Virus record (IMG/VR): IMGVR_UViG_3300048930_000041 | Coordinates: 1-30,217 of that record | Reading direction: 5' to 3' (one strand) | Source of the DNA: a virus | Length of the DNA stretch: 30,217 nt | Shown: positions 26,042-30,217 of the stretch, one piece after another | Numbering within the stretch: the stretch's first letter is position 1 | How the letters are laid out: each line of letters starts with the position of its first letter | Notes under the pieces: generated by a model | The model's input: the letters and a program-made list of their open reading frames with translations, nothing else | Databases searched by the model: none | What the model was told of the DNA's origin: nothing | Program-made: the position numbers and the translations under genes

Positions 26042-26434
26042 TCATGGCCAGAGATCCCCGCGCTTGGCGTCTTCAAGCAAAGCCTCTGCCTCGCTCATCC
26101 CGTAAACAATGCGAACCGGTACGCGGAACTGGCCATATCTAGATCCCTGTCTTGTTCCATGCCAATCGGTGCCGTGGCAAATGCTTGAAACCTTGACTTC
26201 AATGATTCCTGCCAATCCGTCTGGGCCAAACACGGCTATGTCAAAACGAACCTTGGCTCGGCCAGCGAAAACCGAACAGACCTCACCTCTCGCGTTAATC
26301 CCGAGATCGCGCAGGCCGCGCCAGATGACCGCCTGAATCTCAAATTCAGTCGGGCGGTCAGGCTCGACCACCGCCACCGACTCATCGCGCGCGGTGACAT
26401 TTCGCCCTGCAGTGAATGTCTGACGACTCTTCAC
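26042..26434 (-). CDS. Small PD-(D/E)XK-like nuclease (VRR-NUC/resolvase-like)
   Basis: The GTG at 26434 overlaps the primase stop (GTGA) and decides the start over longer in-frame options. The 130-residue protein shows the PD-(D/E)XK pattern: Glu32 in FEIQAVIWRGLRDLG, then VRFDIAVFGPDGLAGIIEVK with Asp65 and Glu79-x-Lys81, then a helix and RVPVRIVYGM. This is the core of VRR-NUC and Holliday-junction-resolvase-like enzymes. Substrate is unknown. Position next to primase, helicase and ninB suggests processing of replication or recombination intermediates. Confidence 0.7.
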   Translation of the reverse strand: MKSRQTFTAGRNVTARDESVAVVEPDRPTEFEIQAVIWRGLRDLGINARGEVCSVFAGRAKVRFDIAVFGPDGLAGIIEVKVSSICHGTDWHGTRQGSRYGQFRVPVRIVYGMSEAEALLEDAKRGDLWP

Positions 26435-27249
26435 AGCGACACCCCCATGGCGTACCTCAATGCCTGCGACACCTTGAACAGCGACGTCGACTGGTGGTAG
26501 TCGTTGAAGTCCTGTCCGACATCGGACGGCATGAAATACGGCCAACCAATTTCTTTCGCCACTCGCTCACCAGTTCCAGATGCGTCGTTGTCGGCCACCA
26601 CGAAGCCGCTCGGCAACGTTGCTGCGATCGTCTTGAGGTTGTTGGCAGAGAAGCACACGAACAGCGTGTACCGGCGCTTGAGCGCGGCCAGGGCAGCGCG
26701 AATGGACAGTGCAGTGGCATACCCTTCGCACAGGACGTTCGGGCCTCTGGCGTCGATCACGAACGCCGCGCCGCTGGTGCGCTGGCCGAACAGGAACTTC
26801 TTGTTGCCCGCCTCGTCGATCAACTGGCAGCCGACGATCCGCCGGCCGATCCGCATCGGGATTACCAGTCGATTGCCGTCATCCCACACGTTGGCCAGTT
26901 CGTCCTTGAACCCCTTGCGTTCCAGATACGGATGGGTCTTGAGTTCGCACTGCGACAAGATCCACTCTGCACGCTCCGCAGCCGCATGACGCCCGGCCTC
27001 GATGTCCTTGGCGACCTCGTTGGCCTGGCGCTGCATCTTGGCGACGTCGACCTGCTGGTTGCCCTCTGGTTTCCACAGGGCCGGCTCGGTCATGGTCGAG
27101 TGCTCCTGCACGAACCCATGCGTCTCCATGAACTTGTAGGCGCCATTGCGCTTGCGCGGGTGATGCACTGTCGGAACCCTGATCCACCGAAACGGGATCA
27201 CGGTGTTGACGATCAGCCCGTGCGCTTGGGCAAACTGCACGAAGTTCAT
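26431..27249 (-). CDS. Toprim-domain primase-like protein
   Basis: The ATG at 27249 overlaps the helicase stop (ATGA) and is preferred to a longer in-frame start. The 272-residue protein has a helical N-terminal part, then NRLVIPMRIGRRIVGCQLID, a common lead-in to Toprim domains in phage primases. The Toprim motifs are NVLCEGYATALSIRAAL (Glu175) and FVVADNDASG (Asp220, Asp222), followed by GQDFNDYHQ. No zinc-binding CHC2 domain is visible, so the zinc part is absent or elsewhere. With the adjacent helicase it would form the priming machinery of the phage. Confidence 0.8.
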   Translation of the reverse strand: MNFVQFAQAHGLIVNTVIPFRWIRVPTVHHPRKRNGAYKFMETHGFVQEHSTMTEPALWKPEGNQQVDVAKMQRQANEVAKDIEAGRHAAAERAEWILSQCELKTHPYLERKGFKDELANVWDDGNRLVIPMRIGRRIVGCQLIDEAGNKKFLFGQRTSGAAFVIDARGPNVLCEGYATALSIRAALAALKRRYTLFVCFSANNLKTIAATLPSGFVVADNDASGTGERVAKEIGWPYFMPSDVGQDFNDYHQSTSLFKVSQALRYAMGVSL

Positions 27250-28718
27250 GCCGCCTTCCTCGCCTTCGCCCATGCAATGCGTCGGGACTTCTCCCAGCGC
27301 GACACCTCCATAGATGGCGGCGCGGCCACGCGCTCAAGGCTGCGCGGCCACACTCCGAACTTTTCGCGAAACTTGTGGCCGACCCAGCCGTCTGCATACC
27401 CTCGGTCCTGCGCGATTCCAAGCAACTCGGAGAACCACCGCTGCTTGACTTCACGGCTGACCACCGGGCCACCGCCAAGTTCCTGCAGCTCACCGGGGAC
27501 CGCCACCACTTCACTGCGCCGGGCGCGGGTGTGGCCGCATGACGGGCATGTGTCAGAGCTTCCCGGCCACAGATGCCCGCACGCCGGGCACTTGGCGGCT
27601 TCCTTCTCCTTCTCGGACTTCTCCTTCTTTGGCTTTTCCTTGTCGTCCTGCAACTCGGTCACGCCAGCCTGGTAGATTTCGTCCCATTCCTCGCGGAATC
27701 GCAGGTAGTTGCCAGAGTGATCCAGCCACAGGCCAAATTCCTTGCCCTGCGCTGGCCGCATCACGCGCCCCATTTGCTGGATGTGGCTCGACAGTGACTT
27801 GGTGAACGGACGGGCCGATACGCCGATCATCACGTCTGGTACGTCGAAACCCTTGGTCAGGATGTCGCACGCGATCAGGCCGTTGATCTTGGTGTCTGGT
27901 CGACTGAAATCCTCGACCGCCTCGGCCTTGAAACTGTCGTCGTCCTTGTAGGAGATCGGAACGAAGTTGTAACCGGCTTCGGCGAACTTCTGCGCCAGAT
28001 CGGCGCCATGGGCCACGTTGGAGCAGAACACGATGGTCTTGCGTGGCCCTCCGAAAACCTCGGTCGTCTTCTTGACCCACTCTGAGACAACATCGCCAGT
28101 GATCTGCATGCCACGCTTGCCCGCCTCGCCCTGACTCCACTCGCCGGCCACTTTCTTGGCGCCGGTCATGTCAATTTCCTTGGCGATGAACACCTTAAGC
28201 GGGACGAGAAACCCGTCGTTCGTCAGTTGCTCCGTCGTCGCAGAGCACACCACGTTCGTGTATGTCGCACTCAGACCCTTCGTGAACGGTGTTGCCGTCA
28301 GACCTATCACCTTCACTTCCGGGTTGTTCTTGATGAACTCGATGGTCTGTTCGCGCTGCGCGTGGCATTCGTCGATGATCAGCACGTTCAGACCGGGGAA
28401 CGATCCGCGCTTCTCCAGGGTCTGCGCGCTGCACACTTGGATGCGCTCGTAGGGCCGGTATCTCCAGTGTCCCGCCTGCATCACGCCATGGTCGATGTTC
28501 CACTTCGTCAGCCTTGCACTGGTCTGGTTGCACAGCACGATCCGGTCCAGCACCATGGCGCCACGCTTGAATTTCTTGCTGGCCGCGTCCAGCATCGATA
28601 TGGCAACTTCGGTCTTGCCTCCGCCCGTTGGCAGGTACAGAATCTGCGCCCGATGCCCAGCGGCAAAGCCGGCGCGCAACTTGTCCAGAATCGATTCCTG
28701 ATATGGGCGAAGGATCAT
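27246..28718 (-). CDS. SF2 DNA helicase with C-terminal zinc ribbon
   Basis: This 490-residue protein has all main superfamily 2 motifs: RPYQ (Q-like, 4-7), Walker A LPTGGGKT (29-36), DECH (116-119), GLTATPF (139-145), a second RecA domain with KTIVFCSNVAHG, LIACDILTKGFDVPDV, and motif VI QMGRVMRP (315-322). It resembles the type III restriction res/UvrB-like group used by phages. A Lys/Glu-rich linker (about 359-375) leads to a four-Cys ribbon (C377, C380, C391, C394). Its start overlaps the ParB-like stop (ATGA). It probably unwinds DNA for phage replication. Confidence 0.9.
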   Translation of the reverse strand: MILRPYQESILDKLRAGFAAGHRAQILYLPTGGGKTEVAISMLDAASKKFKRGAMVLDRIVLCNQTSARLTKWNIDHGVMQAGHWRYRPYERIQVCSAQTLEKRGSFPGLNVLIIDECHAQREQTIEFIKNNPEVKVIGLTATPFTKGLSATYTNVVCSATTEQLTNDGFLVPLKVFIAKEIDMTGAKKVAGEWSQGEAGKRGMQITGDVVSEWVKKTTEVFGGPRKTIVFCSNVAHGADLAQKFAEAGYNFVPISYKDDDSFKAEAVEDFSRPDTKINGLIACDILTKGFDVPDVMIGVSARPFTKSLSSHIQQMGRVMRPAQGKEFGLWLDHSGNYLRFREEWDEIYQAGVTELQDDKEKPKKEKSEKEKEAAKCPACGHLWPGSSDTCPSCGHTRARRSEVVAVPGELQELGGGPVVSREVKQRWFSELLGIAQDRGYADGWVGHKFREKFGVWPRSLERVAAPPSMEVSRWEKSRRIAWAKARKAA

Positions 28719-29548
28719 GCAGCCACCTTGTCCAACTGCTTGCGCTGCATCGCTACCTGCTTCTTGAGCTGCGCGTTCTCGCGCATGTACCCATCGCGCG
28801 ATGCCTTGACCGCGGATAGTTCGGACTCCAGCGTCTTGACCTTGGCGCGCAGTTCGGCGATCGTTTCTGCGGCGGCCTTGCGTTCCTCGTCGCTGGCATC
28901 CATCGACTGCAGCGCCAGCCGGTCATTGAGCCGGTCGTTTTCCTCGGACAGCACGGACACCGCTTCCTGGGCCTCGCCCAACTTCTCCACGATGGCCGGG
29001 TCGATGACAGGGGCAGGCGCTGGTTTGGACTTGGCCGGTTTGGGTGCAATCTGTTTCGCAGCCTTGGGCAGACTGATCTCGCCGTGCGCCACCGCCACCG
29101 CAAGATCCGGCGCCTTCTTGGCAACGGCATCGGCCATCTTCTGTGTGCGGACACTGGCACCGGACTGAGCTGCCCGGTCCTTCGCAGAATCAAAGTGCAA
29201 CGTTGCACTTTGATCGGACTTGCGGTCGCCACCCTTCGTGTTTGCCTTCGCCCAATCCTGCGCACTGGCAACGATGGCCGCTTGCTGTCCGGGTGAAAGG
29301 TGGCGACGGAAGAAGTTCGCCGACAGCACGTAGGTGACAAGGTTGCCCCCGGTGTACTCGGTCATCATCGGCTTGATGCCGAGATCCATGCACGCCTGGT
29401 AACGGTTGCCGCCGTCCAGAATCATCCCGTTGTGGGTGATGATCGGATGCCGCAGTCCGTTGACCCTGATGTCTTCCTTGAGTGCTTCGTATTCCGCACC
29501 GGACATCCGGGGGAACAGGGCGCACAATGGGTGCAGTTCAAACTTCAT
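28715..29548 (-). CDS. ParB-like domain protein with C-terminal coiled coil
   Basis: The ATG at 29548 overlaps the previous stop (ATGA) and is preferred to a longer frame that runs into the upstream gene. Residues 1-75 form a ParB/sulfiredoxin-like domain (HPLCALFP, EALKEDIRVNGLRHPI, MILDGGNRYQACMDLGI). Residues 76-165 are a helical DNA-binding segment (LSPGQQAAIVASAQDWA, VRTQKMADAVAKKAPDLAVA). Residues 185-277 are an acidic/basic coiled coil. No ParA partner is seen in the window. The middle region contains a perfect 26-bp palindrome in its DNA. The role may be replication initiation, nucleic-acid cleavage or gene control. Confidence 0.8.
   Translation of the reverse strand: MKFELHPLCALFPRMSGAEYEALKEDIRVNGLRHPIITHNGMILDGGNRYQACMDLGIKPMMTEYTGGNLVTYVLSANFFRRHLSPGQQAAIVASAQDWAKANTKGGDRKSDQSATLHFDSAKDRAAQSGASVRTQKMADAVAKKAPDLAVAVAHGEISLPKAAKQIAPKPAKSKPAPAPVIDPAIVEKLGEAQEAVSVLSEENDRLNDRLALQSMDASDEERKAAAETIAELRAKVKTLESELSAVKASRDGYMRENAQLKKQVAMQRKQLDKVAA
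29189..29214. repeat. Perfect 26-bp palindrome inside the ParB-like gene
   Basis: The sequence reads identically on both strands from 29189 to 29214, with centre AAC|GTT at 29201/29202. It encodes residues 112-120 (DQSATLHFD) of the ParB-like protein. The next base pair on each side breaks the symmetry. Its 10-base core GCAACGTTGC recurs once, at 26613-26622 in the primase gene. Confidence 0.85.
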
Positions 29549-29889
29549 GCCGCGGCCTGGAGCTTTGCCTTTGCCGGATCGGCCAGCAGCCACACCCGAC
29601 CCTTGCCGTCGCTGTAGCGGGTCGTGAACTTTGCGACACACTTGGCGCCGGTGTTCTCGATCCACTTCTTCATTGCGCCGCACAGGGCTGCAGCCTCGTC
29701 CGAGGCGCACACGATGCACTGGCCCGGCTTCATCGCCTCGAATATTTCCGCGTATTTGTTCGCCGGCCTGGCGCGCCCGACAAGCGGGTCATTGGCAATC
29801 TTGAGCTTGGTAGGGTCGATGAAGCGGTCGCGGCGCTGGGCCTTGGCCTGGTTGAACGGGTTGTTGGCTGAGACTGCAATGCGTGGCAT
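29545..29889 (-). CDS. Conserved phage protein of unknown function, 114 residues
   Basis: The ATG at 29889 has an AAGGAG Shine-Dalgarno 6 bases upstream that overlaps the previous TAG. Residues 1-40 are basic and lack clear structure (PFNQAKAQRRDRFIDPTKLK). Residues 45-107 form a compact alpha/beta unit: YAEIFEAMKPGQCIVCASDE, a helix (AALCGAMKKWIENTGAK), then FTTRYSDGKGRVWLLAD. I recognise this last pattern from many phage hypothetical proteins, but no function is known. It overlaps the ParB-like start (ATGA). Confidence 0.75.
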   Translation of the reverse strand: MPRIAVSANNPFNQAKAQRRDRFIDPTKLKIANDPLVGRARPANKYAEIFEAMKPGQCIVCASDEAAALCGAMKKWIENTGAKCVAKFTTRYSDGKGRVWLLADPAKAKLQAAA

Positions 29890-29892
29890 GGG

Positions 29893-30135
29893 CTACTCCT
29901 TGGGTGGTCCAGTTCTGACCGTTGACCGGAAATGCTCGACCAGAGATGCTTCGGCCATGTCGGCACCGCAGAACTTTTCGATGAGCATGTTTCGGATCAC
30001 TTCGGCCTCGGTGCTGCCGGTGTGGGCGGCATGCACGCGAAGCCGGCGCTCGATTTCCTCGGGGATCGTGGTCTTCACGCTCGAGAGGCACTTACCCCAA
30101 GGCGTGACCATGGCCGGGCGAGAGGGTTGGCCCAT
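29893..30135 (-). CDS. Ribbon-helix-helix-type DNA-binding protein
   Basis: This 80-residue protein starts at the ATG at 30135, one base after the TGA of the incomplete gene upstream. Residues about 19-58 read SVKTTIPEEIERRLRVHAAH then TGSTEAEVIRNMLIEKFC: a beta strand followed by two helices, the Arc/MetJ/CopG ribbon-helix-helix pattern. Such dimers bind palindromic operators and often regulate the operon in which they lie. An alternative start at Met9 would keep the domain intact. Confidence 0.7.
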   Translation of the reverse strand: MGQPSRPAMVTPWGKCLSSVKTTIPEEIERRLRVHAAHTGSTEAEVIRNMLIEKFCGADMAEASLVEHFRSTVRTGPPKE

Positions 30136-30136
30136 G

Positions 30137-30217
30137 TCAGGCGGCCTTCGCTTCCATCTCGGTCGCTCTTTTGCCGTTGAGGAAGAGGTCGGGGTGGTCC
30201 AACTTGACGCGCGGCGG
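30137..30217 (-). CDS. C-terminus of an unidentified protein
   Basis: 26 codons and a TGA (30139-30137) are visible; the rest lies beyond the right edge. The visible end contains LDHPDLFLNGKRATEMEAKA. The frame is continuous and the next gene begins 1 base after the stop, as in other junctions of this operon. The family cannot be told from so short a piece. Confidence 0.55.
   Translation of the reverse strand, partial: PPRVKLDHPDLFLNGKRATEMEAKAA

Follow-up and report, generated by a model that had tools for sequence, protein, structure and literature searches.

A palindrome in the domain linker of a phage ParB-like gene is the probable binding site of the encoded protein and a possible in-gene replication origin

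A gene for a ParB-like protein in the virus record IMGVR_UViG_3300048930_000041 (IMG/VR) contains a perfect 26-bp palindrome, which is very probably the cognate site bound by the gene's own product. The analysed DNA comprises positions 1 to 30,217 of this record (30,217 nucleotides) and is referred to here as the window. The initial annotation described an exact 26-bp palindrome in the coding region that links the ParB-like domain to the DNA-binding helices, and its presence was confirmed at positions 29189-29214 (Table 1). No other inverted repeat in the 30 kb belongs to its class, and the runner-up is 16 nt long at 81%. The chance expectation at the window's own composition of 63% GC is about 0.001 palindromes of this kind, against the 0.0005 given in the initial annotation. 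Chance origin of the palindrome is ruled out by this expectation together with the synonymous-codon shuffles of homologous genes described below. The palindrome is read in frame as codons 112-120 (peptide SDQSATLHFDS), and in the AlphaFold2 model it is placed between the ParB N-domain (helix 86-104) and the helix-turn-helix (helices 122-129 and 133-145). Further copies, also considered in the initial annotation, were not found elsewhere in the window at three or fewer mismatches. The 10-bp core GCAACGTTGC recurs at window positions 26613-26622, inside the primase-like gene, which is not significant when compared with shuffles. No direct DNA relatives were found among phage GenBank records.

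Table 1. Features of the window that bear on the palindrome (window coordinates)
Feature	Position	Strand	Basis or remark
ParB-like gene, 277 aa	28715..29548	-	PHROG ParB-like partition, PDB profile and Foldseek matches
ParB N-domain, aa 1-104, motifs ILDGGNRYQAC and NFFRRHLSP	29237..29548	-	counterparts of the ParB nucleotide-binding boxes
Linker, aa 105-121, encodes the palindrome	29186..29236	-	pLDDT 59-66; location of the inverted repeat in homologues
Perfect 26-bp palindrome ATCAAAGTGCAACGTTGCACTTTGAT	29189..29214	.	putative cognate site of the protein that the gene encodes
Helix-turn-helix, aa 122-145	29114..29185	-	AlphaFold2 model
Recognition helix, aa 133-145, VRTQKMADAV...	29114..29152	-	residues 133-138 vary together with the half-site
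Long C-terminal helices, aa 184-276, presumed coiled coil for dimerisation	28721..28999	-	prediction only
Helicase gene, directly downstream (phrog_16)	27246..28718	-	homologue in 27/29 relatives
Primase-like gene, following in the operon-like array	26431..27273	-	
Small ribbon-helix-helix-like ORF, upstream	29893-30135	same as ParB-like gene	weak Pfam FitA-like RHH and RHH_10 matches below curated cut-offs

The assignment of the protein to the ParB-like proteins is supported by profile and structure searches. The PDB profile search returned Noc and Spo0J (E 2-9e-4), and the search with the predicted structure in Foldseek returned Spo0J (E 1.2e-5), with ParB, Noc, and KorB also among the top matches. 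The AlphaFold2 model has a mean pLDDT of 91.5; its weakest stretch comprises residues 101-120, and the linker scores 59-66. The protein combines the N-domain fold and the helix-turn-helix that characterize the ParB/Noc/KorB superfamily. The residues L44, D45, G46, R49, N78, R81, R82, and H83, which belong to the nucleotide-binding motifs, are invariant in 42 sequences. Binding of a nucleotide (CTP) and closure of a clamp are predicted from the conserved motifs and the fold. The ParB-like gene heads a helicase-primase module in the window. The neighbouring ribbon-helix-helix protein had also been regarded as a candidate binder of the palindrome, and no evidence was found in its favour.

The occurrence of the repeat in related genes was assessed in 135 distinct viral homologues, which were collected by profile searches and with a few conserved peptides; the IMG/VR contigs among them are possibly fragments. 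A near-perfect inverted repeat (score at least 8) is present in 112 of the 135, and in 109 of these 112 it starts at residues 94-143. About one in six viral homologues has no clear repeat. Among 78 representatives at 70% identity, a score of at least 9 is reached by 54 genes, versus 4.9% of synonymous-codon shuffles. This control is conservative, because the linker peptide is itself the translation of the repeat. In a held-out set of 31 genes with less than 75% identity to the training set, a score of at least 8 was found in 20 genes (3.8% of shuffles) and a score of at least 10 in 14 genes (0.4% of shuffles). The initial annotation had proposed to judge the palindrome by nucleotide conservation beyond the needs of the protein, and with these shuffle controls the outcome is strongly positive. 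The linker repeats themselves vary in sequence among homologues, as seen in GTGCAACGTTGCAC, CGGCAACGTTGCCG, CCGGTAACGTTACCGG, TCCGCACNGTGCGGA, GGGTGAACNGTTCACCC, GGGTCTGCAAATTTGCAGACCC, CCGCCACGTGGCGG, and TGCTCCCGGGAGCA. Most records carrying the pattern have one site per genome. The window palindrome itself was found by exact 22-mer search in four other viral contigs, in three of them within homologous genes and in one within an unrelated gene (L004). The embedded repeat appears to belong mainly to the phage branch of the family, since it is absent from most of the plasmid relatives examined, such as pCAR1, Rts1, and others, with the exception of one Streptomyces plasmid. Only 3 matches came from a sample of 369 genomes belonging to the Paraburkholderia class.

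Several variants of the arrangement were observed. The exceptional Streptomyces plasmid carries a DUF5131 gene with a ParB-like N-domain, in which a perfect 30-bp palindrome occupies the same relative position (L258:1483-2919). One viral homologue (L063:2001-2897) has a pair of different palindromes in a single linker, spaced by about 30 bp and comparable to the extra iterons of lambdoid O genes. The linkers of the RT[IM] subfamily (L009, L057, L080, L091, and L099) have one extra central base pair and therefore odd-length repeats, and the repeats of the TQ subfamily are mostly even. Two homologues (L049:1761-1774 and L035:1763-1778) carry a second palindrome upstream of the gene, at a distance of about 230 bp. 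The upstream site of L049 belongs to the GTGCAAC class, though its own in-gene site is GGTAAC, and it is thus of the "wrong" class.

The repeat could be maintained for the sake of the protein, the RNA or the DNA. Conservation of the peptide DQSATLHFD at the protein level is ruled out, as the same DNA is also translated in other frames and recurs in a gene unrelated to this one. The GTGCAA core is read in different frames as QSATLHF, QSCNLAPL, and KVQPLHL, and the CGGTAA core as KSGNVTGL versus GPVTLPD. The arms differ among subfamilies with matched changes on both sides; at arm positions -3 to -5, pairing is kept in 328 out of 330 cells across many different sequences. One core in several reading frames, together with the matched arm changes, argues that selection is on the DNA of the repeat. 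The initial annotation also offered an RNA hairpin, which would act in the mRNA as an attenuator or in translational control. Central mismatches and spacers of 1-3 nt are tolerated in some homologues, as they would be in a hairpin loop. Non-Watson-Crick cells on the coding strand, with the centre pair excluded, comprise 21 A.C, 5 G.T, and 29 others, and the ratio of A.C to G.T does not point to tolerated G.U pairs, as a stem in the mRNA would show. Moreover, the sequence classes of the repeat track the helix-turn-helix, identical sites occur outside the gene, and no Rfam match was found in the window at 28500-30217. A role as RNA is consequently very improbable.

The helix-turn-helix of the protein is the probable reader of the repeat. 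Half-site differences were compared with differences in 8-residue windows of the protein in 63 representatives, with overall divergence controlled (partial Mantel test). In a separate run the recognition helix gave r 0.329, which none of 2000 permutations equalled (largest permuted value 0.18); kinship is only partly controlled and may inflate this covariation, though less so given the partial test and the held-out genes. The 8-residue windows covering residues 127-140 reach 0.14-0.32, and those off the linker and the helix are at or below 0.11. Apart from the linker, where a correlation is trivial, no segment of the protein but the recognition helix follows the half-site. Corrected mutual information places pairs of residues 134, 137, and 138 with bases -3 to -7 in four of the top six positions, or in five when listed by rank as 1, 3, 4, 5, and 6; the pair at rank 2, residue 161 with base -2, may be phylogenetic. 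The helices and sites fall into corresponding classes: [VIL]RTQK with TGCAA, ERTQR with GGCAA, [DE]KTQR with GGTAA, VATIE with CCCTCC or CCCTAC, RTIE with CCGCAC, and RTIQ with GTGAAC. The same correspondence is seen between close relatives. The genes L089 and L094 are 97% identical outside the linker and differ by Lys/Arg in the helix and by T/C at -4 in both arms, a natural compensatory set. L002 and L063 are 87% identical and differ in helix and site together, as do several other pairs at 80-87% identity.

A rule for the bases at -5/-4 was derived from the training set: Arg goes with GC or GA, Lys with GT or GA, and other residues not with GC. It held in 20 of 20 held-out cases, where Arg was found with GC in 13 of 13 genes and GC in none of the seven others; the Lys branch was not exercised in this set. 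Since the recognition helix covaries with the half-site, including in this held-out rule, the most likely identity of the palindrome is that of the cognate site. The covariation suggests that the helix-turn-helix reads a palindrome, as it does in the ParB/Noc/KorB superfamily. The suggestion of the initial annotation that the palindrome is a parS-like or operator-like site of the ParB-like protein itself is thus supported by nucleotide conservation as well as by covariation.

We propose the following mechanism. A dimer of the protein would read the two half-sites with its two recognition helices, as the covariation suggests. The flexible linker between the nucleotide-binding domain and the helix-turn-helix would tolerate nearly any peptide and could thus house the site in frame, adjoining the codons of the helix that would read it. 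Helix and site could then be exchanged together as one cassette. Judging from the fold and the motifs, the site would be the loading point of a nucleotide-dependent clamp, as in other ParB-fold proteins. It may define where phage replication starts and serve to recruit the helicase-primase, in the way lambda O acts at the origin inside gene O.

Sequences of the same kind were also found outside the ParB-like genes. In the Treponema MAG RUG314, the palindrome core lies in the 3′ end of parA, directly upstream of a parB-like gene (L016:5419-5442), and on another contig it occurs five times in 5 kb (L018:679-5315). The repeated core is the same 18-bp core as that of the window palindrome. The recognition helix of the Treponema ParB (GERNVKKAINIL) fits the recognition code, with Arg and Lys where a GTGC site would call for them. 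Treponema RUG314 thus apparently possesses a parABS system with a non-canonical parS, in which the same kind of sequence stands in a classical parABS setting. The exact window 26-mer is present on its own in Chiayiivirga and Lautropia MAG contigs (L013:443-468 and L019:1682-1707); in Lautropia it lies inside a larger GC-rich inverted repeat. No homologue of the window ParB-like protein was found in the Chiayiivirga genome, and Lautropia gave only a marginal ParB-domain match. These two occurrences count against the pairing of site and protein, as do the viral homologues with no clear repeat, the plasmid relatives that lack it, and the upstream site of L049. A 28-bp version is in frame in the phage gene phrog_8246, adjoining a portal gene (L004:6170-6197).

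The exact 26-28 bp copies in these unrelated places (the gene beside the portal gene and the Chiayiivirga and Lautropia contigs), as well as the two units in one linker of L063, would fit a mobile palindromic element inserted in frame, like the Rickettsia palindromic elements. Such an element would hardly be expected to keep a single copy per genome, a fixed position in the linker, and a sequence that changes with the recognition helix, and this explanation is the most improbable of those considered. Multiple copies of one sequence in unrelated genes, as in the Rickettsia elements, were not found here; there are a few isolated ectopic copies.

The role of the site is much less certain than its pairing with the protein. 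A replication origin within the gene, where the initiator is loaded, is the likeliest role, and we put it forward tentatively. It is favoured because helicase and primase genes follow, ParA is absent, and most genomes have a single site. A homologue of the window helicase is present in 27 of 29 records, by coordinates generally beside the ParB-like gene, and in the phages AP1 and LE1 the ParB-like gene is likewise followed by a helicase gene. The detrended cumulative GC skew has its minimum about 0.4-3.7 kb from the site in four of seven relatives and not in the other three, which is suggestive only as an indicator of an origin. This fit in about half of the genomes and the usually single site also weigh against the origin role.

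Autoregulation without an origin function is a less likely role. The protein would bind the in-gene site and repress its own operon as a transcription roadblock. In the ParB-like, helicase, and primase array the site falls within the first gene, about 330 bp in, and this position is compatible with such a role, as are the usually single site per genome and the fact that KorB, a relative of ParB, is a repressor (PDB titles). However, autoregulation leaves unexplained why the site adjoins the codons of the helix-turn-helix instead of the promoter; the extra upstream sites in L035 and L049 show that an upstream operator is possible but rare. Partition is rather unlikely. The palindrome would in this case serve as a genuine parS centromere, either in a phage ParABS system or in one with ParB only, as could be expected from the ParB fold, from the same core repeated beside parA-parB in Treponema RUG314, and from Bacillus subtilis, which has parS within spo0J. 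Nevertheless, a ParA-type ATPase (PF13614) was detected in none of the 29 records, the window included, while 14 of 14 control genomes were positive. Several parS sites clustered near the origin, as in ParABS systems, were not found either: most records that carry the pattern have one site. The in-gene origin is therefore preferred over autoregulation and partition, as far as can be inferred from gene content and site number.

The arrangement resembles that of lambda O and ori-lambda, where an initiator-type DNA-binding protein has inverted-repeat sites in the middle of its own gene and replication genes lie downstream; here, too, the presumed cognate sites are inside the gene and replication genes are linked to it. 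In gene O of Stx phages, the number of sites varies and lengthens the protein, two more iterons corresponding to 13 more residues (PMC7466680). In contrast to lambda O, the ParB-like protein has an unrelated fold, and both helicase and primase are phage-encoded. Lambda has 4-6 iterons and an AT-rich tract, whereas the homologues studied here usually have one longer palindrome and no iteron array. KorB of plasmid RK2, one of the Foldseek matches, is similarly a ParB-fold DNA-binding regulator; its sites are at promoters and are not known from the korB linker. ParB-parS and Noc-NBS share with the present system the ParB-type N-domain, the helix-turn-helix, and the palindromic site. They differ from it in that here ParA is lacking, the site is in the linker between N-domain and helix-turn-helix of the gene, and its sequence varies widely between relatives. 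Small numbers of substitutions within or close to the recognition helix are enough to change specificity, namely R173Q, T179K, A184K, and G201R (Jalal 2020, PMC7383237). A 2025 survey of the ParB-CTPase fold covers ParB-like proteins from phages and prophages, among them fusions to methyltransferases, and finds that their NTP preference varies (PMC12704722); the terms "palindrome" and "inverted repeat" are absent from it, and embedded sites are not described there.

Sites within the gene of their own binding protein are already known, such as the lambda ori in O and the parS in spo0J of B. subtilis. A search of mostly open literature gave no report of a ParB-like family with the site systematically in the domain linker and covarying with the recognition helix. 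With still more reserve than for the origin role itself, we consider that there may be a large, so far unrecognised group of initiators of phage replication that use the ParB nucleotide-clamp fold, with the origin in the domain linker of the initiator gene, helix and origin exchanged as a cassette, and each genome disclosing its own recognition code. Odd linker peptides such as SATLHF, APGADL, SANLQTR, and GNVTGL would be explained as translated DNA sites. Each gene would hold both halves of a protein-DNA pair, so that recognition rules could be read from sequence across more than 100 relatives, in a field where only a few such ParB or Noc pairs have been available. Orthogonal ParB-site pairs may thereby be offered for DNA labelling. 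For the ParB-like proteins of phages that lack ParA, the finding gives a testable function, that of binding to an in-gene origin or loading site.
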